From: Cymbidium sinense
Lineage: Eukaryota; Streptophyta; Magnoliopsida; Asparagales; Orchidaceae
Reading direction: 5' to 3'
Assembly (NCBI GenBank): GCA_021442155.1
Contig: CM038225.1
Location: forward strand, 81,790,925-81,854,924
DNA length: 64,000 nt
Both the position numbers and the translations under genes were made by a program. The notes below the pieces were generated by a model, which did not search any database, was not told where the DNA came from, and saw only the letters and a program-made list of their open reading frames with translations. This document shows, piece after piece, positions 175 through 63,360 of this stretch (positions are counted from its first letter, which is position 1; every line of letters begins with the position of its first letter).

Positions 175-1085
175 ATCCTACTTTTGTGTACATGATTGGA
201 TCAAGCCATCAAGGCCCCTTTCAGGTTACACACGTGAGTTAGATTGGATAAAGTCTTTATGACCCCTTTCTAATATCTAGAAAGATACAATTCCCCAATC
301 AACATTCTTTCTAATCATCTAGGAGTAAGTCCCTAGTCAGCATCCTACTTTTATGTATATGATTGGATAAAGCCATCAAGGCCCCTTTCATGTTACACAG
401 GCGAGTTAGATTGGATCAAGTCTTTATGACCCCTTTCTAATAGCCAGAAAGATATAACTACCAGTGGCATTCTTTCCACAATCAAGTAAGGTTGGCATCC
501 TACATAGGTGTAAGTCCCCTAGTTGGCATCCTATTTTGAGGATTGTATCATGTCTTTAAGGACCCCTCTCCTATTTTCAGCTAATTAGGATGGATCATTC
601 CCTTAACGACCCCATCTTATAAGCTAATCAAATAGGAGTAAGTCCCCTTGTTGGCTTCCTATTCAAATTTCTAAGGAAAGGAATCAAGCCATTGAAGGCC
701 CTATTTTCTTGGACTACTTAAATAGGATTAAGTCCATTTAACCCTTGTTTAGTAGTCTAAGTGCTACGGATTAGGATCAAGCATTTCAAGCTTCTTCTCC
801 CCAGCATAGCTTTTGAGGATTGGATCATGTCTTTAATGACCCTTCTCCTCTCTTTAGCTAACTAGGATGGATCATGCCCTTAACGGCCCCATCTTATTAG
901 CTAATCACATGAATCACCCTCCAAAATAAGTATAGGTAAGTATATGCCTATCTTTCACAATGAAAGTTAAAATAAAATTGAAATCCTAATATGGAAACCC
1001 AAGATTATGCTTTTATGTTGATCAATCCGATCAACACCAATATGTGCACTGTATTTTAATCCACTACACATATTGAGGGTCCATT
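175..1085 (+). repeat. Truncated 3' UTR hairpin array of a family A element, with polypurine tract
   Basis: This stretch matches the 3' UTR arrays at 11240-12667 and 26588-28014 module by module, but it has fewer modules. Each module is a short inverted repeat around a conserved loop. It ends in the purine-rich ATTGAGGGTCCATT just before the TGTTG start of LTR1, the position expected of the polypurine tract that primes plus-strand DNA synthesis. No integrase lies upstream within the window, so only the tail of an upstream element is present. Confidence 0.75.
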
Positions 1086-6276: not shown

Positions 6277-6579
6277 TGGTCTCTCTCTCCATCTTTAGAA
6301 ATAGATGATTATTTCTATATGTCGGCAATGTACTAGTGTAAATCACTCATCATGTCTGCCTTTCTTTTCATTGGATACTTCTCCATTTCATCCTTGGTTG
6401 AATTTATACAACATCTAGAAACAAAATCTGAAAGGAAATAAAAAAGAGAGAGCAAGAAAAAAAAATCTTGGCCATATTATTGGATAAAATATTCCTGATA
6501 GGTCAAAAACATATTTTGACCATATTCTGGTTATTTTACATATTTAATAAAATTAATTTTATTTCTAAAACACAGGAAA
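6277..6579 (+). other. 5' leader of element A
   Basis: A 300-base untranslated leader between the PBS and the ORF1 start. It is colinear with 17670-17977 of element B, including a purine run near 6445-6465 that corresponds to the GA microsatellite of B. No ORF of note is seen. Confidence 0.6.
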
Positions 6580-8848: not shown

Positions 8849-9599
8849 ATGATTTTATTACAATTTGAGATCACTTATATTCCTCTTTGTGTTGTAAAAG
8901 GACAAATAGTGGTAGATTTCTTAGCAGCACACCCTATGCTCGAAGGGTCTCCTTTAAATGATGATCTCCTATACGAACATATCATATCATTGGAAGGTGA
9001 ACCTAATGCCACCTGGGAATTATACTTTGATGGTGCATCATCATTAAGAAGACATGAAGAATCAAATTCATCTATCCTAGGGAAGGCAGAAATTAAGTTA
9101 ATCTTTATAACCCTAGAAAAAGGAATAATGAGATATTCATATCATTTGGCTGAGCCTTGTACAAACAATGAAGTTGAATATGAAGCTCTTATTACTGGTT
9201 TAGAGATACCAGCCCTTATGGAAATTAAAAATATAAAATTTTTTGGGGATTCTCAACTTGTTATAAACCAAGCAGAATCTATAAGGTTTTGCATCCAAAG
9301 CTCTTCAATTATCTTCAATATACAATGAAATTACTTCAAAGTATTCCATATGTAACACCGTGTAGAATATCTCACAAGAAAATTCAATAGCAGATGCTTT
9401 GGTTAAACTAGCCAAAGAAATCACATGCCTAGAAAAAGAATCAATTTCTATAGAAGTTCAAAATCAACTGGTTTTGTCTCCTATAGATTTATACTACATT
9501 AATAGGAAAGAAGAAATGCAAAGAATAGCCACTCTTACTGAAAGTCAAATAGAATGTGATTGGAGGCAACCATTTATTGACTAATTAAGTAAGGGGAGG
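8849..9599 (+). pseudogene. pol: Archaeal-like RNase H (second RNase H), element A
   Basis: A second RNase H that Tat elements carry between the normal RNase H and integrase. The frame from 8849 holds the tether (QIVVDFLAAHPM) and then the fold: Asp in YFDGASS (about 9029), Glu in NNEVEYEAL (about 9164-9190) and Asp in FFGDSQLV (9248). It then shifts, and the fourth acidic residue lies in NSIADALVKLAKE (about 9382-9420). All four acidic residues are present, but the frame is broken at about 9280-9330. A diverged linker towards integrase (RQPFID, about 9565) follows. Confidence 0.8.
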
Positions 9600-10810: not shown

Positions 10811-11239
10811 ACTTGTAACTTTTTGCCAAATAAAGACCAATAAAATAAAAGCTTATTTCTCTTTATTGCTTTTGCTTCAACTTGCATCATTTATCTGGAA
10901 TGTTGTAAACTCATTCGCAAATGTATTTCAAAATGACCTTTCTATCACCTTTCAGGTTAGGCTAATTAAGTAAGGATTGAGTTCATGAGACTTTTACTTA
11001 TTAGTCAAAACATTTGAGGATTAGAAATTAAGTCATTTTAACTCCTTTTCCTCATCCATATCACCTGTAGGATAAGAGCAAGCCCTTTGTGGTACTTTTC
11101 CTATACATGACTTGAGATGGGAGAAACCCCTCTGTGGCACCATTCTAATGCCCTTCTAAGTCTAGAGTAAGCCTTCGCGCACCATTCCCATGAAAACTAT
11201 CTTTGTATGTTTGGAGAAAGCCCTTCATGGCACCATTCC
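10811..11239 (+). other. 3' UTR spacer between integrase and hairpin array, element A
   Basis: AT-rich start followed by stretches with GGAT/AAGCCC/GGCACC phrases that begin the hairpin modules (for example around 11060-11240, where AAGCCCTT and TGGCACCATTC recur). It is colinear with 26168-26587 of element B. No ORF. Confidence 0.6.
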
Positions 11240-12500
11240 TACTTTTGTGTACATGATTGGATCAAGCCATCAAGGCCCCTTTCATGTTACACAGGCGAGT
11301 TAGATTGGATCAGGTCTTTATGACCCCTTTCTAATAACCAGAAAGATGTAAGTCCCTTAGTCGGCATTCTTTCAAATCATCTAGGACTAAGTCCCCAGTA
11401 GACATCCTACTTTTGTGTACCTGATTAGATCAAGACAATAATGCCCCTTTCATGTTACATAGGAGAGTTAGATTGGATCAAGTCTGTATGATTTCTTTCT
11501 AATAGCCAGAAAGATATAAGTCCCCAATCGGCATTATTTTTAATCATATAGGAGTAAGTCCCAAGTTTAAATCCTACTTTTGTGTACATGATTGGATCAA
11601 GCCATCAAAGCCCTTTTTATGTTAAACAAGCGAGTTAGATTGGATCAAGTCTTTATGACCCCTTTCTAATAGCCAGAAAGATATTAGTACTCAGTCAGTA
11701 TTCTTTCTAATCATCTAGGTGTAAGTCCCCATTCGGCATCCTACTTTTGTGTACATGATTGGATCAAGCCATCAAGGACCATTTCATGTTACACAGGCGA
11801 GTTAGATTGGATCAAGTTTTTATGACCCCTTTCTAATAGCCAGAAAGATGTAAGTCCCCAGTTAGCATTCTTTATAATCATCTAGGAGTAAATCCCTAGT
11901 CGACATCCTACTTTTGTGTACATGATTAGATAAAGCCATCAAGGCCCCTTTCATGTTACACAAGAGAGTTAGATTGGATCAAGTCTTTATGACCCCTTTC
12001 TAATAGCCAGAAAGATATAAGTCCCCAGTCGGTATTCTTTCTAATCACATAGGAGTAAGTCCCCTAGTCGGCATCCTACATAGGTGTAAGTCCCTCAGTT
12101 GGCATCCTATTCTGAGGATTAGATCATGTCTTTAAGAACCCCTCTCCTCTTTTCAGCTAATTAGGAAGGATCATATGCTTAACGACCCCATCATATTAGC
12201 TAATCAAATAGGAGTAAGTCCCCTAGCTAGCTTCCTATTGAAATTTCTAGGAAATGGAATCAAGCCATTGAAGGCCCCATTTCTTTGGATTACTTAAATA
12301 GTATTAAGTCCATGTGACCCCTATTTAGTAGTCTAAGTGATGCGGATTAAGATCAAGCATTTCAAGCCTCTTCTCCCCAGCATAGCTTCTGAGAATTGGA
12401 TCATGTCTGTAAAGATCCCTCTCCTCTATTTAGCTAATTAGGATGGATCATGTCCTTATCGACCCCTTCTTATTAGCTAATCACATGAATCACCCTCCAA
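11240..12500 (+). repeat. 3' UTR hairpin array, element A
   Basis: Modules of two kinds alternate. Type I has the loop GGATCAAG...CCCCTTT with a small inner stem (GCC/GGC or GTC/GAC). Type II has the loop GTAAGTCCCCAGTCGGCAT. The flanking arms differ but pair: GTGTACATGA with TCATGTTACAC (11247/11282), TTAGA with TCTAA (11300/11330), GAAAGA with TCTTTC (11341/11368), TAGGA with TCCTA (11382/11405). About five tandem copies of a roughly 170-180-bp four-hairpin unit are followed by single, more diverged modules. Confidence 0.8.
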
Positions 12501-22383: not shown

Positions 22384-23830
22384 AAATAAAATATCTTAAT
22401 TAGGTAAAAGTAGCCCCTAACTTATCAAGAGAAGTGAGGAGGTCAACAAAATTTTATTCTGTACCTAGCCCTTCAAGCTTAGAAGGAGATGTAAAGCTTG
22501 AAGAACCATCTTTCAATGAAATAATAGAACTTCCTTTTGTATTTCTTGTGTAAAGAACGTGAAACATGGTTTTATCACAAATGTTTGGCCCAAAGATAAA
22601 TCCCAACACATGGAGAACTTATGGGATGAAAAACATAGAAATTTCCATTCCAAAGCTCGCATTGGGTTTCATACTATTAAATCATTTGACGATACAAAGC
22701 ATTGTTTAATGAGAAGTAATCATTAATAGATCAACTCTTTGAAGTCTCTTCTACTCTTCTAGATACAAAGATGATTCACTTCAGAGTGCACCTCCTGAAT
22801 ATGAGGAAGAGCACCTCTGAATATGAGGAAGAGATAAAATTTACTATAGATGAATTAAAGTAGATTAACCTAGGAAGTCCTGAGAACCTAAAATTGACTT
22901 TTATTAACTCTTTGTTGGGTCCAAAAGATTCTAAAGAGTTAATCACTTTACTCATTGAGTATAAAGATTTCTTTGCTTAGAGTTATGATGAAATGCTAGG
23001 TTTATCCTAGTATGTGGCTGTGCAAAAACTAGGAATTAAATCTGATGTCATCCCAGTGAAGCAGGCTCCTAGGCGAATACGCCTAGAAGTAGAACAACAA
23101 GTGATAATGGAAATAAAGAAACTAATTGGAGCTATTTTTATACGAGAGGAATAATACCTAGATTAGGTAGCCAACATATTTCCAGTAAAAAAGAAGAATG
23201 GCCAAATACATATCTAAGTTGAATTTAGAGACCTAAACAAGGCTTTTCCCAAAGATGAGTTCCCTTTGCCTATACCCGAACTCATGGTCGTCATAGCCTC
23301 CTCACATGAGATCTTTTCATTTATGGATGGATCATCTAGTTATAATCAAATTAAGATGTCCCCAAAGAAGAAAAACATACGTCATTCAGAACTCCAATAG
23401 GGATTTTCTATTACACGGTCATATCATTTGGTCTCAAAAATGCTGGAGTTACTTATCAAAGAGCTATGACTAGAATATTCAATGACTTGATTCATAATGA
23501 AGTTGAATGCTATATTAATGATCTAGTCATTAAAAGTAAGATAAAAAAAGATCATTTCTATGATTTACTGGGCCACTATAACTTAAAAATGAGTCCTCTA
23601 AAGTGTGCCTTTGGAGTGACTTTAGGGAAATTCTTAGGGTTTGTAGTGCAGCATTGTGGGATAGAAATTGATCTGGTAAACATAAAAGCTAGTATAGAAA
23701 TGCCACCACCTAGAAGTCTTACACAGTTAAGATCATTCAAGGGAAGGCTTGCATACCTAAGGAGATTCATATCAAATTTATCTGGAAGGTGTCAACCCTT
23801 TGCAACATTACTGAAGAAAGATTCCAAATT
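22384..23830 (+). pseudogene. pol: Reverse transcriptase, element B (frameshifts, catalytic Asp changed)
   Basis: A linker (INLGSPENLKLTF, about 22861) is followed by the RT entry (VIPVKQAPRRIR, about 23050), fingers (VANIFPVKKKNG), FRDLNKAFPKDEFPLP, and FSFMDGSSSYNQIKM (about 23308-23355). The catalytic box reads CYINDLVIKSK at 23508: YxDD has become YIND, with Asn for the first Asp (23517). Stops and shifts lie near 22980, 23009, 23152, 23164, 23216 and 23398. The frame from 23466 is open through RT thumb and RNase H. The fragment in element A starts at the equivalent of 23722. Confidence 0.8.
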
Positions 23831-24370
23831 TATTTGGGATGATAAATGCCAGGGTGCCTTCAAAAATCTAAAGCCATATTTAATGAATCCTCCTATTTTG
23901 GCTTTGTTGATTTTGGGAAAGCCATTAATTCTCTATACTACGGTAATGGATGAATCTCTTGGGGCTTTATTAGCTCAGACAAATGAAGAAGGGAAGGAAA
24001 ATGCCCTTTATTATCTAATTCATAGGCTTATTCCAACAGAAAAGAATTATCCTCCTATTGAGAAACATTGCTTAGCCTTAGTTTTTGCCACTCAGAAACT
24101 GAGGCATTATATGCTTTCTCATAAGGTCAACCTGATTTCAATGGTGAATCCTTTGCAATATCTCATGACCTATCCAATGCTATTTGGGCATTTAGCACGA
24201 TGGTCAATGATATTATTACAATTTGAGATCTCTTATATTCCTCTTCGTGCTATAAAAGGATAAATAATGGTAGATTTCTTAGCAGCACACCCTATGCTTG
24301 AAGGGTCTCCTTTAAATGATGATCTTCCATATGAACAGATCATAGCTTTGGAAGGTGAACCTAATGCCAC
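23831..24370 (+). pseudogene. pol: RNase H and tether, element B
   Basis: Part of the open frame 23466-24263. Asp lies in VMDESLGALLAQ (about 23945-23980), Glu in YPPIEKHCLALVF, then KLRHYMLSHKVNLIS. It is followed by the tether (LLQFEISYIPLRAIKG) and a stop at 24261. The order matches dual-RNase-H Tat elements. Confidence 0.75.
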
Positions 24371-26167: not shown

Positions 26168-26587
26168 TTTGTAACTTATTTCCAAATGAAGAACAATAAA
26201 ATAAAAGCTTATTTCTCTTTATTGCTTTTGCTTCAACTTGTATCATTTATCTGGAATGTTGTAAACTCATTTGCAAATGTATTTGAAAATGACCTTTCCA
26301 TCACCCTTCAAGTTAGGCTAATTAAGTAAGGTTGAGTTCATGAGACTCTTTCTTATTAGTCAAAACATTTGAGGATTAGGAATTAAGTCATTTTAACTCC
26401 TTTTCCTCATCCATGTCACCTGTAGGATAGGGAAAGCCCTTTGTGGCACCTTTCTTATACATGACTTGAGATGGGAGCAAGTCTCTGTGGCACCTTTCTC
26501 ATGCCCTTCTAGGTTCGGAGTAAGCCTTCATGCACCATTCCCATGAAAAAATATCTTTGTATGTTTGGAGCAAGCCCTTCATGGCAC
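26168..26587 (+). other. 3' UTR spacer, element B
   Basis: Untranslated stretch colinear with 10811-11239. The AAGCCCTT...GGCACC phrases near 26430-26590 are early, diverged hairpin modules. Confidence 0.6.
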
Positions 26588-27850
26588 CATTCTTACTTTT
26601 GTGTACATGATTGGATCAAGCCATCAAGGCCCCTTTCATGTTACACAGGCGAGTTAGATTGGATCAAGTCTTTACGATCCCTTTCTAATAGCTAGAAAGA
26701 TGTAAGTCCCTTAGTCAATATTCTTTCTAATCATCTAGGAGTAAGTCCCTAGTTGGCATCCTACTTTTATGTACCTAATCAGATTAAGACATCAAGGCCC
26801 CTTTCTTGTTACACAGGCAAGTTAGATTGGATCAAGTCTTTATGACTCCTTTTTAATAGCCAAAAAGATATAAGTCCCCAGTCGGCATTCTTTCTAATCA
26901 TCTAGGAGTAAGTCCCCAGTCGGCATCCTAGTTTTGTGTACATGATTGGATCAACCCATCAAGGCCCCTTTCATACTACACAGGCGAGTTAGATTGGATC
27001 AAATCTTTATGACCTCTTTCTAATTGCCAGAAAGATATAAGTTTCCAATCGGTATTCTTTCTAATCATCTAGGAGTAAGTCCCTAGTCAACATCCTACTT
27101 TTGTGTACATGATTGGATCAAGCCATCATGGCCCCTTTCATGTTAGATAGACGAGTTAGATTGGATCAAGTTTTTATGACCACTTTCTAATAGCCAGAAA
27201 GATATAAGTCCCCAGTCAGCATTCTTTCTAATCATGTAGGAGTAAATCCCTAGTAGGCATCCTATTTTTATGTACATGATTGGATAAAGCCATCAAGGCC
27301 CCTTTCATGTGACACAGGTGAGTTAGATTGGATCATGTCTTTATCCCTTTTAATAGCCAGAAAGATATAAGTCCCCTGTCGGTATTCTTTCTATGCACAT
27401 AGGAGTAAGTCTCCTAGTCAGCATCCTACATATGTGTAAGTCCCTCAATTGGCATCCTATTTTGAGGATTGAATCATATCTTTAAGGACCCCTCTCCTCT
27501 TTTCAGCTAATTAGGATGGATCATGCTCTTAACGACCCCATCTTATTAGCTAATCAGATAGGTGTAAATCCCCTAGTTGGCTTCCTATTCAAATTTCTAT
27601 GGAATGGAATCAAGCCATTGAAGGCCCCATTTCTTTGGACTATTTAAATAGGGTTAAGTCCATGTAACCCCTATTTAGTAGTCTAAGTGCTACGGATTAG
27701 AATCAAGCATTTCAAGCCTGTTGTCTCGAGCATAGCTTTTCAGGATTGGATCATGTCTTTAAAGATCCCTCTCCTCTCTTTAGTTAATTTGGACAGATCA
27801 TGCCCTTAACTGCCCCATCTTATTAGCTAATCACATGAATAACCCTCCAA
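26588..27850 (+). repeat. 3' UTR hairpin array, element B
   Basis: The same alternating type I and type II modules as 11240-12500, with about five units followed by single modules. Examples are GTGTACATGA/TCATGTTACAC near 26601, AGAAAGA/TCTTTCT near 26695 and TAGGA/TCCTA near 26737. Individual modules differ from element A in stem bases, while the loops AAGTCCCCAGTCGGCAT and GGATCAAG...CCCC recur. Confidence 0.8.
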
Positions 27851-33800: not shown

Positions 33801-36331
33801 TGTTGACCTACAACTATGTGCCACTTAAAATTAAATAAATGAGGTGGAGGTTTAAAATCCCTTAATTGCGATTGAAATCGATTAAATCCACTTCAATTTA
33901 AAAATCTGGCTTCAAATGCGCCTAAAATATAAACTTTAATTAAATAAAAAAATATCGAATCAATTAATGACCAATCAAATGATTAAAATCAAATTTTAAT
34001 AAAATTATGCGCATATCAAAGTCAGGAAGCCCCGATGACATCCGAATGACTTTCGTTCATGAAATTAATTATGTCGTTGTCGCCGAAATATCAAAACCTA
34101 TCAAATGACACCTTCCACGATCAATTCGGCAAAATGTATGCGAACATCGATTAATTCAAATGCGACGTCACGTAATTTAAACCTAATTTCGCTCTAATTG
34201 TCATCGACATTGCTTAAATGACCTCCGATCATGAAATCGATCATGCTGTTGTATTTGGCATAATGGAAATACCTAAGATTGACACCCATATTGTTAGGGT
34301 TTATTATTGGGATGATTCATGAAAATTTATATGATTAAGGGTTAATTATCTTAATTACTAAGCTAATTAACCTAAGTAATTCTCCTAAGCCTTACCTAAC
34401 CCCTGCCGTCCATCTGCCCAATTAAAGCCGTCCGTCCGTTATCCCTATTGGACACCCAATCAAGGGATTGACTCAATCCTCGAAACCAAAAGCGGCTAGG
34501 GCATGTTTACCTCATTCACGCTCCCTGCTCACGACATTTTTCTTCCCTCTCTCATTCCTAAAGCTCTCAGTCAAAGTCTCCTCTCTTCCTCTCTCACTCT
34601 CGTGCAACTCACTGTCTCGGCGTGAAACCGAACTCCCAGTAGCAGCTCCTTCTCCCTCTTGCTACACTTGGCCGAACTCCCCTGTAGTAGTTCCTTTCTC
34701 CTCTCTCGGTTTGAAGCACCGAACCCTAGTCGAGCATATCAGAGGATCCTTCCTAATCGCCCTTCCAACCGAAACCCCCAGGTTGTTTCATTTCAATCCT
34801 AAGCTATATTTTGTTATGTGAGTTTTTCTTGAAGGAAATGCAGATTTCTGTTTCTCTCTTCCATTTGTGTTTTATGGTTGGACTTGTTTAATGGGTTTGC
34901 AATAGCATGAAATTAAGATGATTGGATTTATGCTACAAGCTTTCAGTTTGCTATTTTCTCCTTCTAAGGTTGAGCCGAGGAGCTCATTCTCTTTGCTTCG
35001 GTTCCTCCTTTCCTTTGTAGTGTTCCTCCCAATGGATGCAGTGAGGCTTTCTCCTCCTCTCGTGATATGTTGGATTTACGCTATAAGATTTTGCTTTGCT
35101 GTTTCTCCTCCATTTTGCCTTAAATCTTGAATTTGATGAGTCCCATTGGTAGGCAAATTTGCGGGATTTGTATAAACTAAAGCACTGAAAGACAGAGAGA
35201 GGAAAGATGAGGGTTATCCTTGTGACATCTTGCTTTTCTTCTTTGATTGTATTTGTCACTTTGTTACTACTGTGCACTTGCAACATTTCTTTTGTTGAAA
35301 TCCACTGCATGCTATTGTTGCTGTCGTGCACTTGCTTCACATTATTTCATTTCTGCTAGATTAACTGTGTTTACATATTTGTCATATCCAAGAATTGGAA
35401 GACTTTTTGGTGATAGATTTAAAGCTTCTCTATCAAGTGAAATTAGCCTCTCTATCAAGTTAAATTATGCAAATTGTGAGATATGGTTTTAGGTTTCATG
35501 AGTGCATGGTTATGGAAACTAGTGACTAATTTATATTTCATCCATTCCTTGTCAAATTATGCAACATCTTTGATTCTCAGCATGCTGAAATCATTTTTAT
35601 GAAAGGGGAAAACTATTGTCTTGTTGTCTAAAGGCATGATGCATGCTGAAAATATTATTACTAAAGGGGAATTGAATCAGATTTACTTTTAAAAAAAAAG
35701 TATGTTACATGCTAAAAATCATTTTTTTATCAAAGGGGAACCAAATTATTTCTGCTATGAGCTTGCTAAAATCATTTCTATGAGAGGGCTGGAGGTTATT
35801 AATTTGTTATCTGAAGTGTGTTGTTTGCTGAAATTTTGTGTTTACAAAAGAGAAAATTGTTAAATCATGTTTACAAATTGGGGAATTGCTGAAATTTGTT
35901 TCTATCAAAGAGGGAATTGCTGAAACCTATTGATTTTCTTTTCTAAAGGCATGATATTTGCTGAAAAATATTTTTATGTAAGGGAAAATTGAATTAGATT
36001 TGCTTTTGAAGAGTACTACACTTGCTAGACATAGTTTTACCTAAGGGGAAAATCTATGGAATTGTTGTCTAGAAATGTAGTACATGCTAAAATCATTTTA
36101 ATCAAAGGGATTTTTCTCATACTACATACTATCTCTTATGGATTTCATTTGTTTTGCCTCTTGCATATGACTAAAATGAAATCTAAAAAGTGAAATCTGA
36201 AATTAGAAAAGAAAAAGAATTAGCTATACTACTTGCTATTCCCTATGGGTTTCATTCTTGCATATTTGCTTGTTTCTTTGATATCTTGTTAATAGGAAAA
36301 TGCTATGCTATCAAAATTTTGGTCGTAGTGT

Positions 36332-46130: not shown

Positions 46131-46940
46131 CGATGATCTTTCTGATGAGCAAATCATGCACATATATGAAAAAGAAAGACAACAAATGTGGGAATTGTAT
46201 TTTGATGGAGCTTTGTCCATTAAATGCACTCAACCCTCAAATCTCCCAAAGGCTCGAGATGATATCGCCTCATCTTGATCACATCTGAAGGTGGTATAAT
46301 GAGACATTCTTATAAATTAACTCAACCCCGAACCAACAATGAAGCAGAATATGAAGCGTTGGTGGTAGGTTTAGAGGAAGCCATTTCCATGGGAGTCCAG
46401 AATTTGCAAATTTATGGCAATTCTCAACTCATCATCAATCAAGTGTTGGGCCTTTACAAAATCAACAAGCTTGAATTGGCCTACTATCACAAGCGAGTTC
46501 TTGAACTTATGAAGCAAATCCCAAATATCATTATGACTCGAGTCTCTAGAGCTAGGAATAGCAAAGAAGACTGCTTAGCTAAGTTAGCTAAAGAAATGGT
46601 GAGTTTGGATGATGATGATTATATACTAATCAGTGTTTGCACCCGTCGAGTCTTAGAGCCAATAAGTGTAAAACCCCGTGAAGAGGGGTCATCAAACACA
46701 AATCAACAGGGTGCAGCTCATGTTGCTCCTCACACTCCCTTACAAATTACTTTCCAAAGTCAATAAGACAAGCTTCAAACCATTCCAGATGAAAGACCTC
46801 AACCTGAGGAAGTGCTAAAACCACACAATGAAATCCTTATAGTAGAAGAGAAGGAAGACTGACCCTTCATCTACTTCAAAGAAGGCAAATTGCCAAGTAA
46901 TAAGTCGATAGCTGCACAACTTGATAAAAGGCTTCAACTA
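46131..46940 (+). pseudogene. pol: Archaeal-like RNase H, element D
   Basis: WELYFDGALS lies at about 46189-46220 and the frame then shifts. The open frame 46275-46766 has NNEAEYEALVVGLE, and IYGNSQLIINQ where other copies have GDSQ: the third catalytic Asp is Asn (46419). The final Asp is kept in SKEDCLAKLAKE. The open part is 163 residues, the longest aRNH frame of the window. A linker to integrase follows with a stop at 46764. Confidence 0.8.
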
Positions 46941-48094
46941 TATGCTTATGTTGGCAATACTCTGTATCGTAGATCCTTCGAGCAGATGTGGCTACGATGT
47001 TTAGGAATAGAAGAAGCCAACAAAGTAATTGTTGAAATCCTTTAAGGACTTTGTGGTGCACACCAATCAGGTCCTAAAATGGCTTTCAAAATTAAAAGAA
47101 TTGGATACTATTGGCCGTCTATGATAAAAGATTGTATCAATCATGCCAAGAGATGCCATGAATGCCAGATCCACGGTAACATAATTCATCAACCTTCGAA
47201 TCCATTGCACCCAATGATAGCATCTTGGTCGTTTGAGTGTTGGGGGACATATGTAATTAAATCGATTGATCCACCATAATCAGCTGGTCACCGCTTCATC
47301 TTAGCAGCCACCGATTACTTTTCTAAGTGGGCTGAAGCTGCATCATTTAAAGAAGTTACAGCTGAACAAGTGACCTACTTCTTTACCCATAATATTATCT
47401 ATAGATTTGGTGTACCACGCCGAATCATTTTAGATAACAGATCAGCCTTCAAAAGTACTAAAGTTTACAAATTTGCTGATCGGCATAAAATTGATTGGCG
47501 ATATTCATCAATTTATAATCCGAGAGCAAATGGCTTAGCTGAGGCATTTAATAAAACACTAGTCAAATTACTTAAAAAAATTCTCACAAGAAATAAAAGG
47601 GAGTGGCATACCAAACTTGTGGAAGCATTATGGGCTTACCGTATCACTTATAAAACTCCTACAAAGTATACTCCCTATGCACTGGTGTTTGGGGCTGAAG
47701 CAGTTTTGCCACTCGAAGTTGAACTACCTTCACTCCGAGTAGCCATTCAACAAAATCTTACCCAAGATGAGAATGCTAGTCTATGAATGGAAGAGCTTGA
47801 TGCGCTTGACGAGGTTAGGCTCCAAGCTCAACAAAATTTAGAAGTCTATCGAGGATGTCTAGAGCATTCGATCATATAGTACGTCCTTGAGTTTTTCAGG
47901 ACGGGGAATTGATCCTGGTGCTAAGAAGACCAATCACTCATCGCAGAATTGGCAGTAAATTTGAACCAAATTGGGAAGGACCTTTCGTTATTGAAAAGAT
48001 ATATCAAGGAGGAGCCTATCAGCTCATTGACTTTAAAGGTGAAAGACCAATGTTGCCAATCAACGATCGGTATTTAAAGAAATATTACACATGA
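46941..48094 (+). pseudogene. pol: Integrase, element D (first catalytic Asp is Tyr)
   Basis: HHCC region: CGAHQSGPKM to CHECQ (about 47050-47165; open 47079-47279). In the core the first Asp is Tyr in WGTYVIK (47250), after which the stop at 47277 follows. The second Asp is kept in LDNRS (47433), with Arg instead of Gly after Asn. The Glu is kept in NGLAEAFN (47541). The frame 47370-47786 is open for 138 residues and includes VFGAEAVLPLEVELPS. The C-terminal part (47909-48094) ends at the original stop, TGA at 48092. It is less broken than A and B. Confidence 0.85.
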
Positions 48095-50034
48095 AAGTGT
48101 GGTTGGCCAAATCCTACATTTGAAAGTCTTCATTGCCAAACACACATGGAAATTTTCATTGGAAATTCTCTTGTAACACAAGAATGCATTTCAAAAATAA
48201 AATAAAAATCCCCCTGTTAGACAGGGGGTATTTTTTTTAAGTTTTATAGTCAAATGTCGGGTGTTCCTAGTAATACAGGGGGGTCTTTCTTTCTCTTTGG
48301 GTTGACATCGGGCCTAGTGCTGAGATCCCTACATACATACTCAAAATTATGTGTTCAAATTCTTAAATTTAAAAGTCTTACTGACCAAAGAATAAAATTA
48401 TCAAGTCTGCAAACTTTAACAAACCAAGTTGAATATACATTTATCTTCCCACTTCAAATCTAAATCTCGAGTTGGTGTATAAGGTCAGACTCAAAATGCC
48501 AAAATATGGTGAGTTATTGACAGGTCTGCTTACTCAACATGCCACAAAGGCTGTAGTAAGAGATCTCCATCTCGTTAGCCCGATGATAACATCCTTCATC
48601 AAATTGCTCAAATCCATGACTCAAATGGGTGTATAAGGTCGGACTCAACACGCCAAAATATGCGAAGTCAGCGGCCACTTACTCAACACGCGTCACAAAG
48701 CCCAGTAGGGATCCTCCTACGTTAGTTCAAGACAAAAGCATCCGAATCCCCAAATCTCTACAACTTGGTGAGTCCGAGTGGCCCAGACTGGGAAATTATC
48801 CCTATTGGTTGTAAGGTCATTTCTCAAAATTCTACAACAAAAAAAATTCAGACTCAAGAAGGCACTAAGCCGAGTTAGGAATCAAATACAAATGTGAAAT
48901 CTCAACTCCTTGATAAGTCTATAAAGCGGCAAAGGCAGAAAATTCTTCTTCAGTAAGTCCAATCAAGCAAAAGGCAGAGGACCAAAGAAGCTATCCCAAT
49001 GTTTGTATAAAGCTAAATGCCAAACTAAGGGAGTTTTTGTCATCAAGATGTTCATTACATGTGCAAAGTACAGGACTGATGACTCTTTGCCATTGATCCA
49101 ACATAAGCTCTGAGAGCTAGGTCATCAGCATTTATCCTTCCAGCCTAAAAGCTAAGTGAAGGTAATTTCGTATCGCCTGACAAATCTCCAAGATAATTCA
49201 GGACTTCTCTCCATCAAATCTATCAAGGAATGATGCCAGGATAAAAGGAGGCACAAGATACAAATCTTTGAGATGAAATCTTCAACAAGTCCGTCAAAGC
49301 ACCAAGCACAGGACCGAAGATATTTCTATCTCATCAACTCCATCAAGTCTGTGAAGGAACAAAGCCAGGACAGGAGGAAAATACAAATCCCAAATTTTGA
49401 GATGAAATCTTCAATAAGTTCATCAAAGTAGAAAGCACAGGACCAAAGACATTCTCATCTCACCAACTCCATCAAGTCCACCAATGCACGAAGCCAGGAC
49501 AGGAGGAAAATACAAATTTTAAAATTTTGAAATGAAATCTTCAACAAGTCTGTCAAAGCACAAAGCACAGGCCCGAAGACGTTCTCATCTCAGCAACAAA
49601 CCATCAATTCCATCAAGTCCGCTAAGGCATAAAGCCAGGATAGGAGGAGAAAATATAAATTTCAAACTCTCAGGAGGAAGTCTTCAACAAGTCTGCCAAA
49701 GCACAAAACATAGGGCTAAAGATGCACCAAATTCCCTTGACAAGTTGATGATGACAAGTCAAAGCTCTCTTTCATCTAGTTAATCAAGCACAAAGAATTT
49801 GACTAATGACAACAAATACCGGTTCAACGAGCTATTGCAGTCGATTTGATGAAATGCAAATACTTGTCCAACCTGAGAGTTATACTCACTTCTATCAAAG
49901 GGCAGCAATCAGGTATTATTAAAAATTGTTGAAATTATAACTTCAGCGTGACATCCAAGCAAATCTCTTGGAGATTCGCAAGGTCAACTAGTGTGTCGAT
50001 TAAACTCCATGCACCATGTTTGTTGGGGGGCATT
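48095..50034 (+). repeat. 3' UTR of element D with repeat modules and polypurine tract
   Basis: A 1.9-kb untranslated stretch. The phrase TAAGGTC(A/G)GACTCAA with a 70-base body occurs at 48479 and 48639. A roughly 130-bp unit with CTTCAACAAGTC, CAAAGCACA and GCCAGGAC occurs four times, at 49280, 49409, 49539 and 49682. The end is TTGTTGGGGGGCATT (50020-50034) before the LTR, a clear polypurine tract. The modules differ from those of A/B, but the general plan of 3' UTR tandem units is the same. Confidence 0.7.
48210..48238 (+). other. Terminator-like hairpin with T-run in the D 3' UTR
   Basis: CCCCCTGT (48210) pairs perfectly with ACAGGGGG (48221) across a TAG loop. A T-run of eight follows from 48231. 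It lies 116 bases after the integrase stop. In a bacterium this would be called a terminator; in a plant retroelement the role is unknown. Confidence 0.5.
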
Positions 50035-51583
50035 TGTTGACCTACAACTATGTGCCACTTGAAATTAAATAAATGAGGTGGAGGTTTAAAATCCCTTAAT
50101 TACGATTAAAATCGATTAAATCTGCTTCAATTTAAAAATCCAGTTTCGAATGTGCCTAAAATATAAAATTTAATTAAATAAAAAATATCGAATCAATTAA
50201 TGACCAATCAAATGATTAAAATAAAATTTTAATGAAATTATGCGCATATCAAAGTCGGGAAGCCCCGACGACATCCGAACGACTTCCGTTCACAAAATTA
50301 ATCGCGCCGTTGTTGCCAAAATGTCGAAACCTATCAAACGATGCCTTCCGTGATGAATTTGGCAAAATATACACGAACATCGATTAATTTAAATGCGACG
50401 TCACGCAATTTAAACCTAATTTTACACCAATTGTCATCGACATTGCTTAAATGATTTCCGATCGTGAAATCGATCGCGCTATTATATTCGGCACAATGGA
50501 AATACCTAAGATTGACACCCATATTGTTAGGGTTTATTATTGGGATGATTCATGAAAATTTATATGATTAAGGATTAATTATCTTAATTACTAAGCTAAT
50601 TAACCTAAGTAATTCTCCTAAGCCTTACACTATTACATAATTAAAATATTATCCCTATTGGATGCCATTTAGGCAACCAATCAGAAGGCCGATCGGCTCT
50701 AATCCTCGAAACCAAAAGCGGCTAGGGCATGTTGACCTCATTCACGTTCCCTGCTCATGACATTTTTCTTCCCTCTCTCATTTCTAAAGCTCTCAGCTGA
50801 AGTCTCCTCTCTTCCTCTCTCTCTCTCTGTAACTCTCCATCTCCATAGAACTCCCCTGCGCCTCTTTCTCCCTCTTGTTGCACTTGGAACTCCCCCATGG
50901 TTCTCTCTCTCTTGAAGCAGAACCCTAGTCAAGCAAATCAGAGGATCCTTCCTAATCGCCCTTCCAACCGAAACCCACAGGTTATTTCATTTCAATCCTA
51001 AGCTATATTTTCCTATGTGGGTTTTTCTTGAAGGAAATGTGGATTTTTGTTTCCCTCTTCCATTTGTGTTTTATGGTTGGACTTGTTTTCTAGGTTTGAA
51101 ATAGCATGAAATTAAGATGATTGGATTTATGCTACAAGCTTTCAGTTTGCTATTTTCTCCTTCTAAGGTTGAGCCGAGGAGCTCATTCTCTTTTCTTTGG
51201 TTCCTCCTTTCCTTTCAGCCGTCTGTTCCTCTCCACTGGATGCACGACTGAGGCTTTCTCCTCCTCCTGCTGTGTGATATGTTGGATTTATGCTATAAGC
51301 TTTCGCTTTGCTGTTTCTCCTCCATTTTGCCTTAAATCCTGAATTTGATAAGTCCCATTGGTAGGCGGATTTGCGGGATTTATATAGACTAAAGCACTGG
51401 AAGAGAGAGAGAGAGAGAGAGGAAAGATGAGGGTTATCCTTGTGACATCTTGCTTTTATTCTTCGATTATATTTATCACTTTGTTACTACCGTGCACTTG
51501 CAACATTTCTTTTGCTGAAATCCACTGCATGCTATTATTGCTGCCATGCACTTGCTTCACATTATTTCATTTCTGTAGATTAA
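50035..51583 (+). repeat. 3' LTR of element D, 5' 1.55 kb only (truncated)
   Basis: It matches 33801-35364 of the 5' LTR from TGTTGACCTACAAC to the shared TAGATTA, after which the two differ completely. It carries small indels and a GA run at 51402-51420 where the 5' LTR has a shorter purine stretch. TTTATATAGAC at 51379 (TTTGTATAAAC at 35167) is a possible TATA box. The remaining 4.9 kb of the LTR is gone. Confidence 0.8.
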
Positions 51584-52920
51584 AATCTTTTAGAAATAAG
51601 GAACCATTGGGGTGATCAGTTGCTTTGGGCAACAAATCAAACCCGACCTAGGGCTGACTATTGAGAGAACATCATTAGGGGACTTAAATCAGCTCAAGAA
51701 TAGTCAAGATTAATTTTCATTTTTAATTTATTTATTTTAATAGTTTTCATCAGTTTGCGATGGATCACACTAAGAAGGAGCTTATAGAAGCCTAAACCTA
51801 TCTCAAATTTATTGAACTAAAGGGAGTAGCTTCTCGGCCGATGGGAGAACTATCTGACCAAAGGAGTCCCTTTCAATTTGCAATGATCAATTGAAGGGAT
51901 AAAAGCTGAGGGACTCACATCTTCCACTAGAAAAGATCACTGGGGTGATCGGTTGCTTTGGGCAACAAATCAAACCTGACCTAGGGCTGGCCATCGATTT
52001 GTGACAATCATGCTAGAAAAAGAATGCAATATTATCTTATATCTTTCAAAGCGGAATGACTGTCAGAGTAACCTGCTTGTGGCAAAACAAATTGTTCCCT
52101 ACCTAAAGGTGACTACAGAGTGAGTACCGACCTGGGGATTTATCTTAAATCAGGTAATCAGACAATTCCTATTGGGAGTTCTGCTGACACTGCCCTAAAG
52201 ATATGATGCCTGCTTGGGAGAAAGGGCCCTTTCGGGCTTGAATCCTATTCCATAAGCAAATTAATTTTTGTTTGTTTATTTATTTTAGTTGGTTGTTTTA
52301 TCATGGACCATGTTTATTTGTGAGGTATCAAACTGAGAGGGAGCTTATATCAGCCTAGGCCTATCTCAAATTTACTGAACCAAGGGAGAATCTATGCATC
52401 TGCTGAACAAATTCTCCAACCACAGGGGTGGCTACTAGGAAAGGGGAAATGTCTAATCCAAAAGTAACCTGAGTAGTGTCTAAATGGAGTCACAAAGGAC
52501 TTGATCCAAATAAAGTTCCCTCAGGGGATGGGATCGGTAAGGGCTTAATCCAACACCTAGAGAAGGTGACATGGCTAGTCATATATTAAATAGGTATTCG
52601 GTGTCCAACTTAAAGAGAAAGCTCAAGGACTCGTATCTGCCAAGAGTGGTGTACTCGTCGGGTGATTCACTGTCAGCATAGAGAACATCAAGCAACCTAA
52701 GGTGTCTGTCGATTTACAACAATTAACCTATGAAGAAAGCTCGGGGACTCGTATCTTCCTACTGCAGAACTGACTGCTGGGATAGTCTTTTTTTAGCTCG
52801 ACAAGTGTTATCCGACCTAGGGTAACTACTGAGTGAATGCCACTGAGGCACTTAGATCAACTCAAAAGTAGTCAAGAGGAAAAATATCTCTGGGGAACTT
52901 AGATCAACTGAAGCATATGC
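51584..52920 (-). repeat. 3' UTR-type hairpin modules of element E
   Basis: No ORF. On the minus strand the loops resemble those of the A/B array (GATCTAAGT, ACGAGTCCCCGAG). Arms pair: GACTATTCTTGAG with CTCAATAGTC (plus-strand 51656-51706), and GACTACTTTTGAG with CTCAGTAGTT (plus-strand about 52827-52876). One phrase with TTGCTTTGGGCAACAAATC occurs twice (51618 and 51953). These features place it as the 3' UTR of E, joined to integrase by a deletion near 52920. Confidence 0.6.
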
Positions 52921-53390
52921 TGAGCTATGATCTATCTGAGTGGGATGGCTTCCACCCACTTGGAAAAGTAGTCGGTAGTAACTAAGATGAGTCGATGCCC
53001 TTAGAGAAAGGAGGATTGATCAGACCTACAATGTCGGTACCCCAACACTCAAATGGCCATGAAGCTAAAGTAGGGTGTAGAATGTTGGGTGGTTGGAGGA
53101 CCACACCGTGCACCTAACACTAATGGCATCTCCTAGCTACGTCCATGCAATCTATGATCATAGAAGGAAAGTAGTATCCAAGTCTTTTAATCTTCTACTT
53201 CATCTTTGGACTAGACTGATGTGCTCCACATAGACCTGCGTGTACCTCAGTTATAATGCCATGGGCTTCATATTTGTCTAAATAATGTGACCACATCTGG
53301 TCAAAGGACCAACAGTACAGGGTGCCATTAACAAGAGCATAGGAAAGAGCTCTTTGTTTCACCTGATGGGCTTGAGATTTCTCTTGACGT
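52921..53390 (-). pseudogene. pol: Integrase N-terminal third, element E (truncated)
   Basis: On the minus strand the open frame ending at 53195 holds the linker WRQPFIDYL and CGAHQSSPKMK. The HHCC region continues as KIKRLGYYF in another frame, and the core start WPFECWGTDIVGLINPP lies at about 53060-53010, with the first catalytic Asp kept. After about 52930 the integrase similarity stops. The second Asp, the Glu and the C-terminal domain are missing. Confidence 0.75.
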
Positions 53391-53995
53391 AGTTTGTCGG
53401 TGTTCAAATAATCTATGAATGGTTGCCTCCAATCTAGCTCCTTGTCCATTTTGGCAATGATAACCTCCCCTTCAAGAGAAAGTCTCTCGATGAGTTTTGA
53501 ATCAATAAGGGATAAGACTTGTCTATTTTGGACCCTTATTGAAATGGACTCATCATTCAAACATGCCAACTCTTTGGCAAGTTTTGTCATGGAATCTACT
53601 ACTGCGTTCTCTGCTTGGGGAACCTTGTAGATGGTGACTTTGGGAATCTGGGCCAACAGCTTCATGGTATACTCATAGTAATGATAAAGCTTGGGCTTAA
53701 GGACCTGGTAGGACCCGACAATCTGGTTGATCACCAACTGAGAATCCCCAAAGATGTTGATGCTCTTAATGCTAATAGTGATGGATAACTCTAAACCAGT
53801 AATCAAAGCCTCATGCGTAGCTTCATTATTGGTGCACGGGTTGGAAAGATAGTATGAGAATCTCATCACATCATGATTTAGAATTAAGAGAACTGTTCCT
53901 ACCCCTGCCTTACCTGGGATAATAGATCGTGGTGCTTTTTCTTTAAAAAATGAAGCAGCACCATCAAAATACATCTCCCATCAGTGGTTGTTAGC
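53391..53995 (-). pseudogene. pol: Archaeal-like RNase H, element E
   Basis: The open frame 53974-53195 (259 residues) starts MYFDGAASFF and includes NNEATHEALITGLE, IFGDSQLVINQ and NAVVDSMTKLAKE. In other copies the second motif is NNEAEYEAL; here the catalytic Glu position is Thr (codon at 53818-53816). The other three acidic residues are kept. It is the longest intact frame of this domain in the window and continues into the integrase linker without a stop. Confidence 0.8.
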
Positions 53996-54500
53996 CTCTC
54001 ATAAGTTCATGATTTTTTCATCGGTGTTACTGAGCAGAGAATCAGTAGGAAGTGGGTGTGCTGCTAAGAAATCCACTAGTACCTGACCTTTTTTTCCTGA
54101 CATTTTACTGCAGATAGGGTACAAATGTAATATCAAACTATGAGAGTATCATGGACTAATGAGCCAAACGTCTGGAAAGTGTTGGTCATGTCATGAGGTA
54201 CTATAGTGGATTGGTTCTTGAGATCAAGTTCACCTTATGAGAAAGCATGTAGTGGATTAGCTTCTGAGATGCAAAGATCAAAGCTATGCAATGTTTCTCA
54301 ATAGGTGGGTAGTTTACTTTAGTAGGGATCAGATGATGACTGAGGTATTAGAGTGCGCTTTCCTTCCCCTCATCATTAGCTTGGGCCAATAGAGTGCCAA
54401 GAGAGTCATCCAATGCAATAGTGTAAAGGATCAATGGCCTGCCTGGGATAGGGGCTGCAGGAACTGGTGGCTTCACCAAGTTTTCTTTGATGTCTTCGAA
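53996..54500 (-). pseudogene. pol: RNase H and tether, element E
   Basis: The frame 54770-54348 runs from RT thumb into RNase H: RPLILYTIALDDSLGTLLAQ, with Asp in LDDS. After a stop near 54348 the domain goes on in broken form (NYPPIEKHCIALIFASQKL, HYMLSHKVNLIS, about 54320-54220). The tether to about 54000 has many stops. Confidence 0.7.
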
Positions 54501-55345
54501 TGCGTACTGACACTTATCATCCCAGTTGAACTTGCCATCCTTTTTGACAAGTGCTGAGAATGGCTTGAATCTCCCTGATAATTTTGAGATAACGCATCTT
54601 AGCTCTGCCAGCCATCCTTGAAAAGATTTGAGTTGAGTTAAACTCTTAGAAGTTGAAATTTTTAAGATAGTTTTAATATTTTTAGGATTTATTTCTATTC
54701 CCAGATGTTGAATAACAAACCCAAGGAATTTCCTTGAAGCTACTCTAAATGCACACTTTAAGGAATTCATCTTGAGGTTATATTATCTTAACCGTTCAAA
54801 AATAACTCTCAAGTCAAAGAGGTGGTCTTCCTTTTCTTTGCTCTTGATTACTAGATTATCAATGTAGCACTCAAACTGATAATGGATGAGTTCATTGTAG
54901 ATTTCAGTCATGGCCTGTTGGTATGTAGCACCAGCATTTTTAAGGCTGAAAGACATGACCCTAATAATAAAAGATTTCAATTGGGGTTAGTGCTTCTTTC
55001 ATCTTCAGGAGACATCTTGATTTGGTTATAGCTAGATAACCCATCCATGGAAGAGAACACAACATGAGATGAGGCAATGTCCACTATTAATTCTAGTATA
55101 GGAAGAGGAAACACATCCTTAGGGCATGCCTTGTTTAAGTCCCTAAAATTGATGTAAATGCGAATTTGGCCATTCTTCTTCTTAATTGGGATGATACTAG
55201 CTAATCAAGTAGGATATTTTTTTCCCTGATGAAACTAGCATCGATCAGTTTCTTGACTTTAGAAATGACCTGTTGTTCAATTTCTAATCACATGCGTTTA
55301 GGAGCTTTCTTAATAGGGGTAATATTAGGGTCTATTACTAGCTTA
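54501..55345 (-). pseudogene. pol: Reverse transcriptase, element E (YIDN in place of YxDD)
   Basis: It begins after LVIDPNITPIKKAPKRM (about 55338-55288). The fingers and palm (55290-54985) have stops and shifts, but phrases such as KKEEWPNSHL and FHGW can be followed. The frame 54980-54783 has MSFSLKNAGATYQQAM and the catalytic box CYIDNLVIKS (54869-54840), where the second Asp is Asn. The frame 54770-54348 continues with LKCAFRVASRKFLGFVIQH, the thumb. Confidence 0.75.
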
Positions 55346-61149: not shown

Positions 61150-63360
61150 TGAATTAAAATTTGAACCCACATCCAACAACTTGGAAGTGTTAAGTGGGGT
61201 TCAAATAGATTTGGAAAGATTGATTGAAAGAGGAATTTTAGTATGAATCCAAACTTCAACAAATTTAGGTATGTTGAAATATAGATTCAAGATTTTGATA
61301 GGATGCTTCCATAGGTTCATTGTGTTTTGAGTTTGATCTTTTGATTTGGATTTGGAGGACCCTTCCCTTTAACAAATTTGGGTATGTTAAAATAAGGGTC
61401 AAATTGATTTTATGTTGTTTGAATGTATTGGAATTTTCTCTTACTTAGCAAATTTAAATATGCTAAGTAAAGTGAAGGTGATTGTTTCTTTTTGAAAATT
61501 TTGTTTTGTTTTGATTTAGGAAAATTTTGGAATTCTTACTTAGCAAAGTTAGGTATGCTAAATAAGGAATCCAAGTGTATTTTTATTTGATTTTGAAAAA
61601 TAGGATTCTTAGTAAATTTAGGTATGCTAAGAAAATCCTAAGTGTTTCATTTGTTTGGAAAATTTTGATTTTTGAAAAGGGTAGGATCCTTTAGCAAATT
61701 TGGTATGCTAAGGGAATCCTAAGTGTTTCATTTTATTTTTGAAATGACTGAAAGTGGAGATTCAACTTTAGCAAATTTTGTATGCTAAAGATGAAGTTTC
61801 ACTTGGTTTTATGAAATGGAAATTTCACTTAGCAAATTTGAGTATGCTAAATGAAATTAAAAATGGTGTGTTTAAAATTTTGATTTAATTTTTTATTTTG
61901 AAAAATGGAAATTTCTCCTTAGCAAATTTGGTATGCTAAGGGAATAAGTTCCAAAGGTGTTTGAGAAATTTTTGTTTTGAGTTTGGAAACTTTACTTAGT
62001 AACTTTGAGTATGCTAGATGAAGTTCCAAAAATATGTTTTTTTGAAAAGTTTTGAATTTTTGATTTGGAAACTTTACTTAACAAAGTTAGGTATGTTAAA
62101 TAAAGTTCCAAATATTGTTTGAAAATTTTGAATTTTGGATTTGGAGATTTCACTTAAAAAATTTGGGTATGTTAAGTAAGGTTCCAAAATGTGTTTTTGA
62201 AAATTTTGAAATTTTAGGATTTGGAGACTTCACTTAATAAATTTGGGTATGTTAAGCAAGGTTCTAAAATGTGTTTTGAAAATTTTTGAATATAGATTTG
62301 GAAACTTAACAAATTTGGTATGTTAAATGAAGTTCCAAATGTATTTAGAAAATTATGAAATTTTGAATTTGGAAACTTTACTTAACAAATTTGGGTATGT
62401 TAAATGAAGTTTCAAATGTGTTTAGAATTTTGAAAATTTTTGGATTTTGATTTTGAAACTTTTACTAGCAAATTTCCATTATGATATGAATGTTAAATGG
62501 GTTTGAATCTTTTTGAAGTTTCAAATGTGTTTAGAATTTTGAAAATTTTTGGATTTTGATTTTGAAACTTTACTTAGCAAATTTTATTATGATAAGTGAA
62601 ATTCCAAATTTGTGTTTGAATTTTTTTTTGAAATATGATTGTTGATTTTAATTTTGAAAAGAGGACCTCCATTCAACAAATTTAAGTATGTAGAATAGAG
62701 ATTGATATTTTTGAAATGTGAAATTTTTATGCGTGATTTTTGCTTTTTGAAAGAGAGGAAATCCAACTTAAAACATATGTGATATATGTTTAAGTAGGAT
62801 TTCCTAAATGATATTTTATTTTTAGTTGGGAATGAAATCTTCATCTAATAAATTTAAATTTATTAAATGAAGTTATTCATGTGTGCTTTTTGAAAATTTT
62901 TGATTTTGTTTACAAATGAACTTTCCATTCAATAAGTGTGAATGTATTGAATAGAAAAATTCATGTGTGCTTTTTGAGAATTTTTATTGTGGTTATGATT
63001 TTTGGAAAACATGATTGTTCATTTTGTTTTGAAAATGAAATCTTCATCAAAGTGAATTGAAAGAATATGTTCATTTATGCTTCTGGAAAATGTTATTAAT
63101 TTTATTTTTAAAAATTCCTACATGTAACAATTATGTTAACTGTTAAATGAGGGTGAAGAAATTTTGTGGAAAATATTTTATTAAGTGCATTTTTGAAAAA
63201 TGTGCTTTTGAGAAAGCAGAGTTCTTTATGGAAGTTTTATTATTTTTAGGATGAACCTTTCCTTATCATGAAGATGATAAGGGGGAAGTCTTTAAGATGT
63301 TTCTTTTTATATTTCGGATCTTTTCATTTTACCCATTGGAGTAACCCAATGGGGGTTTTT
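61150..63360 (-). repeat. Long hairpin array in the 5' leader of element E
   Basis: About twenty modules of 70-110 bases, each with a conserved centre close to AAATTTGGGTA flanked by an inverted repeat whose sequence varies. Examples are TTACTTAGCA/TGCTAAGTAA (61441/61461), CTTTAGCA/TGCTAAAG (61766/61783), TTTAACA/TGTTAAA (61368/61385), TTCAACA/TGTTGAA (61255/61272), CCTTATCA/TGATAAGG (63261/63275) and CCCATTGG/CCAATGGG (63332/63346). A 48-base near-perfect palindrome lies at 62757-62804. The leaders of A, B and D are only 250-310 bases and lack such an array. Confidence 0.8.

Follow-up and report, generated by a model that had tools for sequence, protein, structure and literature searches.

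The tandem repeats that precede the 3′ LTR in at least two families of Tat retrotransposons can fold into rows of predicted hairpins, which have in common one asymmetric internal loop with five nucleotides (A-N-Y-A-A) on the 5′ strand and a single one (C or A) on the 3′ strand, hereafter 5x1. Selection on a folded structure is supported, as the same 5x1 loop recurs in family A and in the distinct family B far above its frequency in shuffled sequences. The original prediction of such selection is partly supported, by way of the recurrent loop but not by way of covariation amongst the copies of A.

The Tat elements of the window and their arrays

The window, as the whole stretch of 64 000 nt analysed here is termed, corresponds to C12:81790925-81854924 in an assembly of 3.53 Gb, and all arrays studied come from this one plant genome. 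Self-comparison reveals three copies (A1, A2 and A3) of one Ty3/gypsy family, A, for which the start of the LTR was read by eye, together with an element B whose LTRs lie at 33801-35364 and 50035-51583; element C comprises the remains of a third element on the minus strand. With regard to coding domains, A3 harbours an RT_RNaseH domain (23466-24263) and C an RT_RNaseH_2 domain (54348-54782, minus), with a second RNase H (RVT_3) present in A2 (8849-9328), B (about 46263-46766) and C (53195-53974, minus). A second RNase H (aRH) defines the Tat clade in the available text of PMC6317226 and, because of the RT-RNase H of A3 and the second RNase H of A2, B and C, domain content places all three within the Tat clade of Ty3/gypsy. 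In angiosperm Ogre and Retand, aRH is located between RH and INT; in B, where the scan covered aRH and INT, the RVT_3 domain is followed by rve (47280-47786), and aRH therefore precedes INT. The second RNase H of A displays 58 % identity to that of B over 59 aa, A and B being distinct families, and 52 % to that of C over 84 aa; the closest relatives of the window's RT fragment amongst the matches listed are Dendrobium proteins, with up to 73 % identity. Tat-like pol genes were also encountered in records labelled as Streptomyces clavifer, Serratia marcescens and Klebsiella pneumoniae (L025; proteins P0026, P0036 and P0072), where they are probably plant contamination.

The A copies, at 170-29854, seem to have LTRs in common, in the tandem order LTR-internal-LTR-internal-LTR, as if by unequal recombination. 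Since the 3′ region of C ends at the LTR of B (51583), B may have been inserted in C; beyond the other LTR of B (33800) lies sequence rich in TTGACC repeats that was not recognised as C.

Between pol and the 3′ LTR, a tandem array is detected by TRF, with a 167-nt unit in about five copies in A2 and A3; in B, the tandem repeat has a 129-nt unit in 2.7 copies. The hairpin arrays thereby occupy the place of the known Tat tandem repeats (PMC7004042, available text). Counted by place, the A2 array contains 31 hairpins plus four doubtful ones (Table 1). Those originally predicted from 11240 to 12500 are present there with the arms named, and likewise in both sister arrays, but the array starts earlier, near 10960 rather than at 11240. 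In other copies, the leading hairpins 0a and 0b keep their same-position pairs in 349 of 390 and 237 of 256 cells, respectively. As for type III modules, a regex matches one in A2 and four in A3, where sites 26436 and 26481 fit the loop descriptor described below; three of the four classes are without own-arm pairing. Covariation had also been claimed for the inner stems: GTC/GAC and GCC/GGC are indeed seen, with module I-i carrying GCC/GGC in A1 and GTC/GAC in A2, but AAGC/GCTT occurs in only one of the three copies of its module. Tail modules match more than once, and elsewhere, in A arrays L035, L037, L043, L047 and L053, and turnover therefore seems to affect single modules or blocks of them.

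Table 1. Predicted hairpin modules and arrays, with coordinates in the window
Feature	Position	Strand	Support
Two leading A2 hairpins, 0a and 0b	10960-11006, 11015-11054	+	Local MFE fold
Type III modules (four), core GGAGCAAGCC..GGCAC	11057..11236	+	By eye; doubtful as hairpins
Module I-a, arms TGTGTACATGA/TCATGTTACACA, loop ATCAA/C, inner GCC/GGC	11246..11293	+	MFE; own arm ranked best
Module I-b, arms TTAGA/TCTAA, inner GTC/GAC	11294..11339	+	MFE; own arm ranked best
Module II-a, arms AGAAAGA/TCTTTCT, loop TGTAA/AT, inner GTC/GGC	11340..11374	+	MFE, descriptor, covariance model R2
Module II-b, arms TAGGA/TCCTA	11382..11409	+	MFE, descriptor, R2
Four more tandem copies of the 167-nt unit (I-a, I-b, II-a, II-b)	11410..12078	+	TRF, repeat search, alignment
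Module II-c	12080..12110	+	Descriptor; R2 12078-12111, E 4.8e-06
Module I-c, arms GAGGA/TCCTC	12114..12149	+	R1 training member
Module I-d, arms GCTAATTAGG../..ATTAGC	12156..12200	+	R1 training member; same-position pairs in 254/302 cells
Module II-d, arms AATAGGA/TCCTATT	12207..12239	+	MFE, RNAalifold; R2 12206-12239, E 0.0071
Module I-e, arms AGGAAATGG/CCATTTCTT	12249..12285	+	MFE, descriptor
Module I-f, arms GGATTACTTAAATAG/CTATTTAGTAGTC	12286..12335	+	MFE, descriptor; R1 E 0.71 only
Module I-g, inner stem weak	12336..12387	+	MFE, RNAalifold
Module I-h	12391..12426	+	R1 training member; own arms 7th of 18
Module I-i, arms TTAGCTAATTAGGATGG/CC..TTATTAGCTAA	12430..12480	+	Repeat search, MFE, RNAalifold
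A1 array: two 167-nt units (second truncated) and tail modules	180..904	+	MFE, regex, R1
A3 array	26312..27830	+	MFE, regex, R1, descriptor
Hairpin array with the same 5x1 loop, 3′ non-coding region of B	48484..49648	+	Descriptor
Type I-like module in C, arms decayed	52521..52560	-	R1 E 0.008 on window; 0.00062 on 4.9 kb, no filters

Module architecture and the 5x1 loop

Arm pairing was assessed with modules anchored by loop sequence and grouped by place into 18 classes. The summed duplex energy of the own arms is -122.7 kcal/mol, as compared to -75.0 (sd 6.6) for permuted arms, with none of 20 000 permutations as low; the arms therefore vary between modules yet still match, as had been claimed. 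The own 3′ arm ranks first of 18 in seven classes, second to fourth in five, fifth in II-a and II-b and seventh in I-h, followed by III-b (11th), III-d (12th) and III-c (14th), these last three being the classes with no own-arm pairing. AGGA/TCCT arms are common to several classes.

What had been described as two loop types proves to be one architecture, comprising a variable stem, the loop A-N-Y-A-A opposite C or A, a 3-4 bp stem starting from G-C, and an apical loop. Type I reads stem - ATCAA - GTC or GCC - 5-6 nt - GAC or GGC - C - stem; in type II the order is stem - (N)GTAA - GTC - 6-8 nt - GGC - A(T) - stem, the inner stem containing a U-G pair; and the upstream type III reads stem - AGCAA - GCC - 6 nt - GGC - A - stem. 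In all three the internal loop is asymmetric, with its long side on the 5′ strand and its AA end before the inner G-C pair. Type I matches in 20 further arrays number 367, picked by a model that rewards pairing; in the best 150 of these, the inner stem is GTC/GAC in 69, GCC/GGC in 39 and the incompletely paired GCC/GAC in 14.

A descriptor of the 5x1 loop, written after the motif had been seen in A and, by eye, in B, gives a median of one match over 502 windows of 1500 nt taken on both strands. The top counts (11, 10 and 9) fall on the coding strand of the 3′ regions of A2, A3 and B, respectively, and the best windows outside the A and B 3′ regions reach 5 (minus strand from 60501). Stricter descriptors failed on type I owing to its TT/TT interruption, which the later descriptor tolerates. 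One of these stricter descriptors gives nine matches within 48100-50030 of B and none on the other strand, against a mean of 0.94 and a maximum of 4 in shuffles, with example hairpins at 48945-48990, 49269-49333 and 49339-49378. When the 3′ regions of A and B are compared by BLAST, no match in the same orientation is better than E 3.4, and there is one marginal match in opposite orientation (E 0.024).

Internal loops of every size were also counted in minimum-energy folds, using no sequence rule. Twenty further A arrays (53.5 kb) contain 145 5x1 loops, and three on the other strand. Their 5-nt side is ATCAA in 66, ATTAA in 38, ATCAT in 19 and AACAA in 6; outer and inner closing pairs are each G-C in 144 of the 145, and the single nucleotide is C in 136. 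The coding and 5′ regions of A, B and C (37.8 kb) contain no 5x1 loop on one strand and three on the other. For B, 20 stretches were sampled, each downstream of an integrase of the B lineage with 75-94 % identity to that of B, and here too no loop size exceeds the other strand by as much as 5x1 (41 vs 9). The 5-nt side of these 41 loops holds A at the first position in 29, any nucleotide at the second, C at the third in 27, and A at the fourth and fifth in 37 and 35, respectively, which yields the consensus A-N-C-A-A opposite C or A; the outer pair is C-G in 33, the inner pair G-C in 30, and the single nucleotide C in 20 or A in 18.

Five rounds of dinucleotide shuffling, with folding in 1.6 kb pieces, produce 2, 0, 2, 4 and 5 such loops against 142 in A, which represent few independent events since the A arrays are copies of one family, and 7, 3, 5, 4 and 2 against 41 in B. 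The exact motif (A-N-Y-A-A before G, opposite A or C) occurs 115 times in A and in none of the five shuffles, and 21 times in the B regions against 0, 0, 0, 2 and 0. By B stretch, motif loops with the AA end before G number 4 in L058, 3 in L059, 4 in L061 and 9 in L062, these four being close relatives, three in L065 and one each in four others, with none in 11 of the 20. A looser descriptor returns 101 matches on the B-lineage regions, as compared to 24 on the other strand and 30.2 in shuffles; in stretches L060, L063, L064 and L070 matches are no more numerous than on their other strand. In one B-lineage module, in L059, a single stem contains two such loops, one above the other (CTCC-ATCAA-GTCC-ACCAA-GGC-ACAAA-GCC-A-GGAC-A-GGAG).

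Relative to the genes, the loops lie one way round, and their orientation is fixed. The strand difference in 5x1 counts was considered as a sign of the acting strand and rejected: the antisense strand folds the same hairpins into a mirror loop, mostly 0x4 (131 vs 5 in A, 60 vs 23 in B), and so the difference says nothing on which strand acts.

Loop conservation, taken as mean pairwise identity with 6-7 positions per loop column and no significance test, is 0.91, 0.97, 0.90 and 0.95 for positions 1-4 in A, as compared to 0.833 for flanks and 0.85 for stems; position 5 (0.81) is less conserved than the flanks. In B, positions 4 and 5 reach 0.88 and 0.90, against 0.785 for flanks, 0.782 for apical loops, 0.807 for inner stems and 0.836 for outer stems. 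Position 1 (0.83) is not above the outer stems, and positions 2 and 3 (0.70 and 0.72) and the single nucleotide (0.64) fall below the flanks.

Covariance model R1, trained on A only, gives 39 matches at E < 0.02 in the window, 38 of them in the three A arrays (15 being training rows); the single match outside A lies in the 3′ region of C, on C's coding strand. On that strand the R1 matches that follow, on 4.9 kb with no filters, are weak (E 0.23 and 0.65), R2 reaches E 0.15 at 52017-52048 (minus), and the descriptor finds no matches in C, the array of which is degraded; the 3′ regions of A and C faintly resemble each other in the same orientation (best E 0.006). R2 scores higher at 6299-6320 (minus, E 0.005, 14 % G+C), but this match is probably due to chance. 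By eye, the integrase frame of C seems to break off near 52945 (minus), with hairpin sequence following directly, in the manner of a deletion that joined integrase and 3′ region. Outside the plant arrays, the type I core has one exact match in each of 24 viral contigs, on which R1 finds nothing below E 0.1; a Tat RT search reveals no relative in viral contigs and, in genome contigs, one contig of 4.7 kb that ends about 0.7 kb past the RT match.

A second, different hairpin array was observed at 61230-63130 (minus), upstream of the gag of element C, with some 20 modules that possess variable arms and a near-constant apical loop (TACCCAAATT and variants). In 13 of 20 regex matches (those with 10-nt loops), 10 of 14 pairs are changed on both sides, with 25 double-change cells against 9.5 shuffled, and all five measures stand at 0 of 500 shuffles. 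Its folding z is -13.8 on the minus and -7.6 on the plus strand, and a recurrent C-A mismatch on plus is, by eye, a U-G pair on minus.

Copying, decay and compensatory change

The 167-nt unit copies in A were multiplied and then decayed. Amongst 11 of them, none of 48 pairs is changed on both sides, and 90.7 % of 525 cells pair, no more than in shuffles (91.2 %). Ten A modules followed through 20 more A arrays pair in 2328 of 2657 cells, with 25 double-change cells set against 12, 11, 47 and 11 in slid controls, and hence no excess; same-position covariation within the A family was accordingly rejected as evidence, there being no compensation above controls. In the B lineage, eight modules with 7 to 36 distinct copies each pair in 1805 of 2030 cells, as compared to 30-51 % in slides, and show a modest excess of double-change cells (48 vs 19, 11, 22 and 19 in slid controls); the reference modules were chosen by descriptor, rows that did not differ from the reference were left out of the counts, and class S mixes orthologous with paralogous matches. 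The covariation that had been predicted is thus absent amongst copies of one module in A and modestly present amongst B-lineage copies.

Five type I classes compared with each other contain 27 double-change cells vs 13.6 shuffled (0 of 500 shuffles), but the pairs with double changes (6 of 12) are as many as shuffles give on average (6.0), and shuffles yield more further pair types (16.7) than the 14 observed; for two type II classes the corresponding values, observed vs shuffled, are 13 vs 7.0, 3 of 10 vs 3.5, and 7 vs 8.7. With few paralogous classes, each copied at least three times, such double-change cells are not independent events. In a three-copy comparison of the tail, two RNAalifold pairs change on both sides with pairing kept, C-G and U-A in I-i, and G-C and A-U (G-U in the third copy) in II-d.

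Arms kept by copying only, which had been named as the outcome that would speak against selection, hold for the A copies, with subsequent decay, but not between different modules. Decayed pairs display no sense-wobble preference, with G-U at 187 vs A-C at 159 in A and 139 vs 129 in B, and present copies therefore decay freely. Two further lines of evidence were tried and rejected. The strand preference of decayed pairs was set aside with G-U about equal to A-C and a noisy symmetric arm alignment (18 vs 17). Folding z-scores (-4.1 and -3.9 for the two strands of A2) were dropped because coding controls are as low, two coding stretches giving -5.5 and -3.6.

Candidate functions and known systems

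Arms that are free to vary, a loop that is fixed, a single orientation and a place before the 3′ LTR would fit a row of like protein sites on the genomic RNA, read by avidity and likeliest by Gag, and this is the reading that we tentatively prefer, regarding it as plausible without being probable. The element RNA would carry the hairpin row ahead of its 3′ LTR, each hairpin displaying the asymmetric loop, 5'-A-N-Y-A-A-3' opposite a single C or A, between Watson-Crick pairs of which the inner is G-C. The arms would be free to change so long as they pair, with the loop retained as the recognition site of an RNA-binding protein. Many like sites on one RNA would recruit many protein copies, and module gain, loss and shuffling would therefore be tolerated. 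The likeliest protein would be the Gag of the element itself, with a role in packaging or assembly, given that a retroelement has to select its own RNA. It is from anatomy that we infer action as RNA, binding, avidity and Gag as partner.

The chief rival is a mutational origin with no function, whereby RT template switching and unequal recombination would multiply a hairpin-prone unit and turn its arms into perfect copies of one another, and the common loop would reflect ancestry alone; this is a real possibility, if an unlikely one. It accords with same-position copies that are kept by copying and decay neutrally, with the tandem nature of the unit, with the strongly negative folding z of coding stretches, and with the available text of PMC7004042, where illegitimate recombination or abnormal strand transfer is invoked to account for the tandem repeats of Tat 3′ UTRs. 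It fits less well with 3′ regions of A and B that lack a convincing BLAST match in the same orientation, yet have the loop and inner G-C pair in common, or with the better conservation of most fixed loop bases than of their flanks. Nor is it apparent why a process that generates inverted repeats would preserve a 5x1 loop flanked by two stems.

Unlikely, too, is an RNA structure with another role, be it the recruitment of a host factor that serves nuclear export, stability, localisation or translation, or protection of the 3′ end against Dicer and RNA-dependent polymerase. The same anatomical evidence would serve it as serves the Gag reading, and there is the precedent of the constitutive transport element of simple retroviruses, the repeated internal loops of which bind a host export factor. 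Plants, however, to our knowledge lack clear NXF1/TAP, making the animal export route unlikely. A small-RNA precursor, or a folded single-stranded DNA feature in reverse transcription or integration, is very improbable: hairpins of 30-50 nt do stand in tandem, and both strands fold to similar z, so that sense RNA, other strand and DNA are not told apart, but the array belongs to the region that is copied into genomic RNA, and no miRNA family matches at the Rfam gathering score.

Extending the preferred reading, in which Gag would bind the array, the A-N-Y-A-A / C-or-A loop might be a clade-wide Tat recognition element, the hidden constant behind hypervariable 3′ UTR repeats and a multivalent RNA address read by Gag or a host protein, with turnover under constraint feeding plant satellite DNA; we consider this rather unlikely. 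We know of no function for the tandem repeats of Tat 3′ UTRs. A common folded motif, if true, would explain how repeats are kept while their sequence changes, and would offer both a testable function for these puzzling repeats and a candidate RNA-handling signal of Tat elements, which are abundant in some plants. Ogre, for example, makes up 45 % of one genome (PMC7004042, available text).

With regard to known families, Rfam gives no match at gathering score in the window, and permissive searches of three stretches yield only sub-threshold matches. The best, to SCARNA7 (48297-48451, minus; E 0.0011, 25.7 bits vs 65 required), is probably chance. In the available text of PMC7004042 and PMC11963269, tandem repeats in Tat 3′ UTRs are established, and give rise to satellite DNA. 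Neither hairpin nor secondary structure occurs as a term in the main texts of PMC11963269, PMC7004042 and PMC6317226, and amongst the open-access papers that literature searches listed, titles and abstract openings contain no description of such hairpins in Tat elements; the nearest paper, from its accessible part, concerns enod40 stem-loops with similarity to other repeats (PMC10578108).

Several known systems nevertheless bear comparison. C-loops and kink-turns, defined by particular non-Watson-Crick pairs in 3D, are likewise internal loops whose closing pairs can belong to the motif (PMC3854523, available text). The Psi stem-loops of retroviruses, packaging signals bound by Gag, are similarly stem-loops in genomic RNA, but those amongst the papers listed lie at the 5′ genome end, whereas a 3′ array of some 30 predicted hairpins is present here, with Gag only a proposed ligand. 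The constitutive transport element also presents a repeated internal loop near the 3′ end as a protein site, putative in the present case, but has few loops and an animal export receptor, and is likened by anatomy rather than by sequence. Closest are the 3′ UTR repeats of Ogre, Retand and other Tat elements, which, in the source text available, also lie between pol and the 3′ LTR as tandem units of family-specific sequence. Those have been described as DNA repeats and as a satellite source, whereas the units here fold as hairpins and one loop is common to two families.
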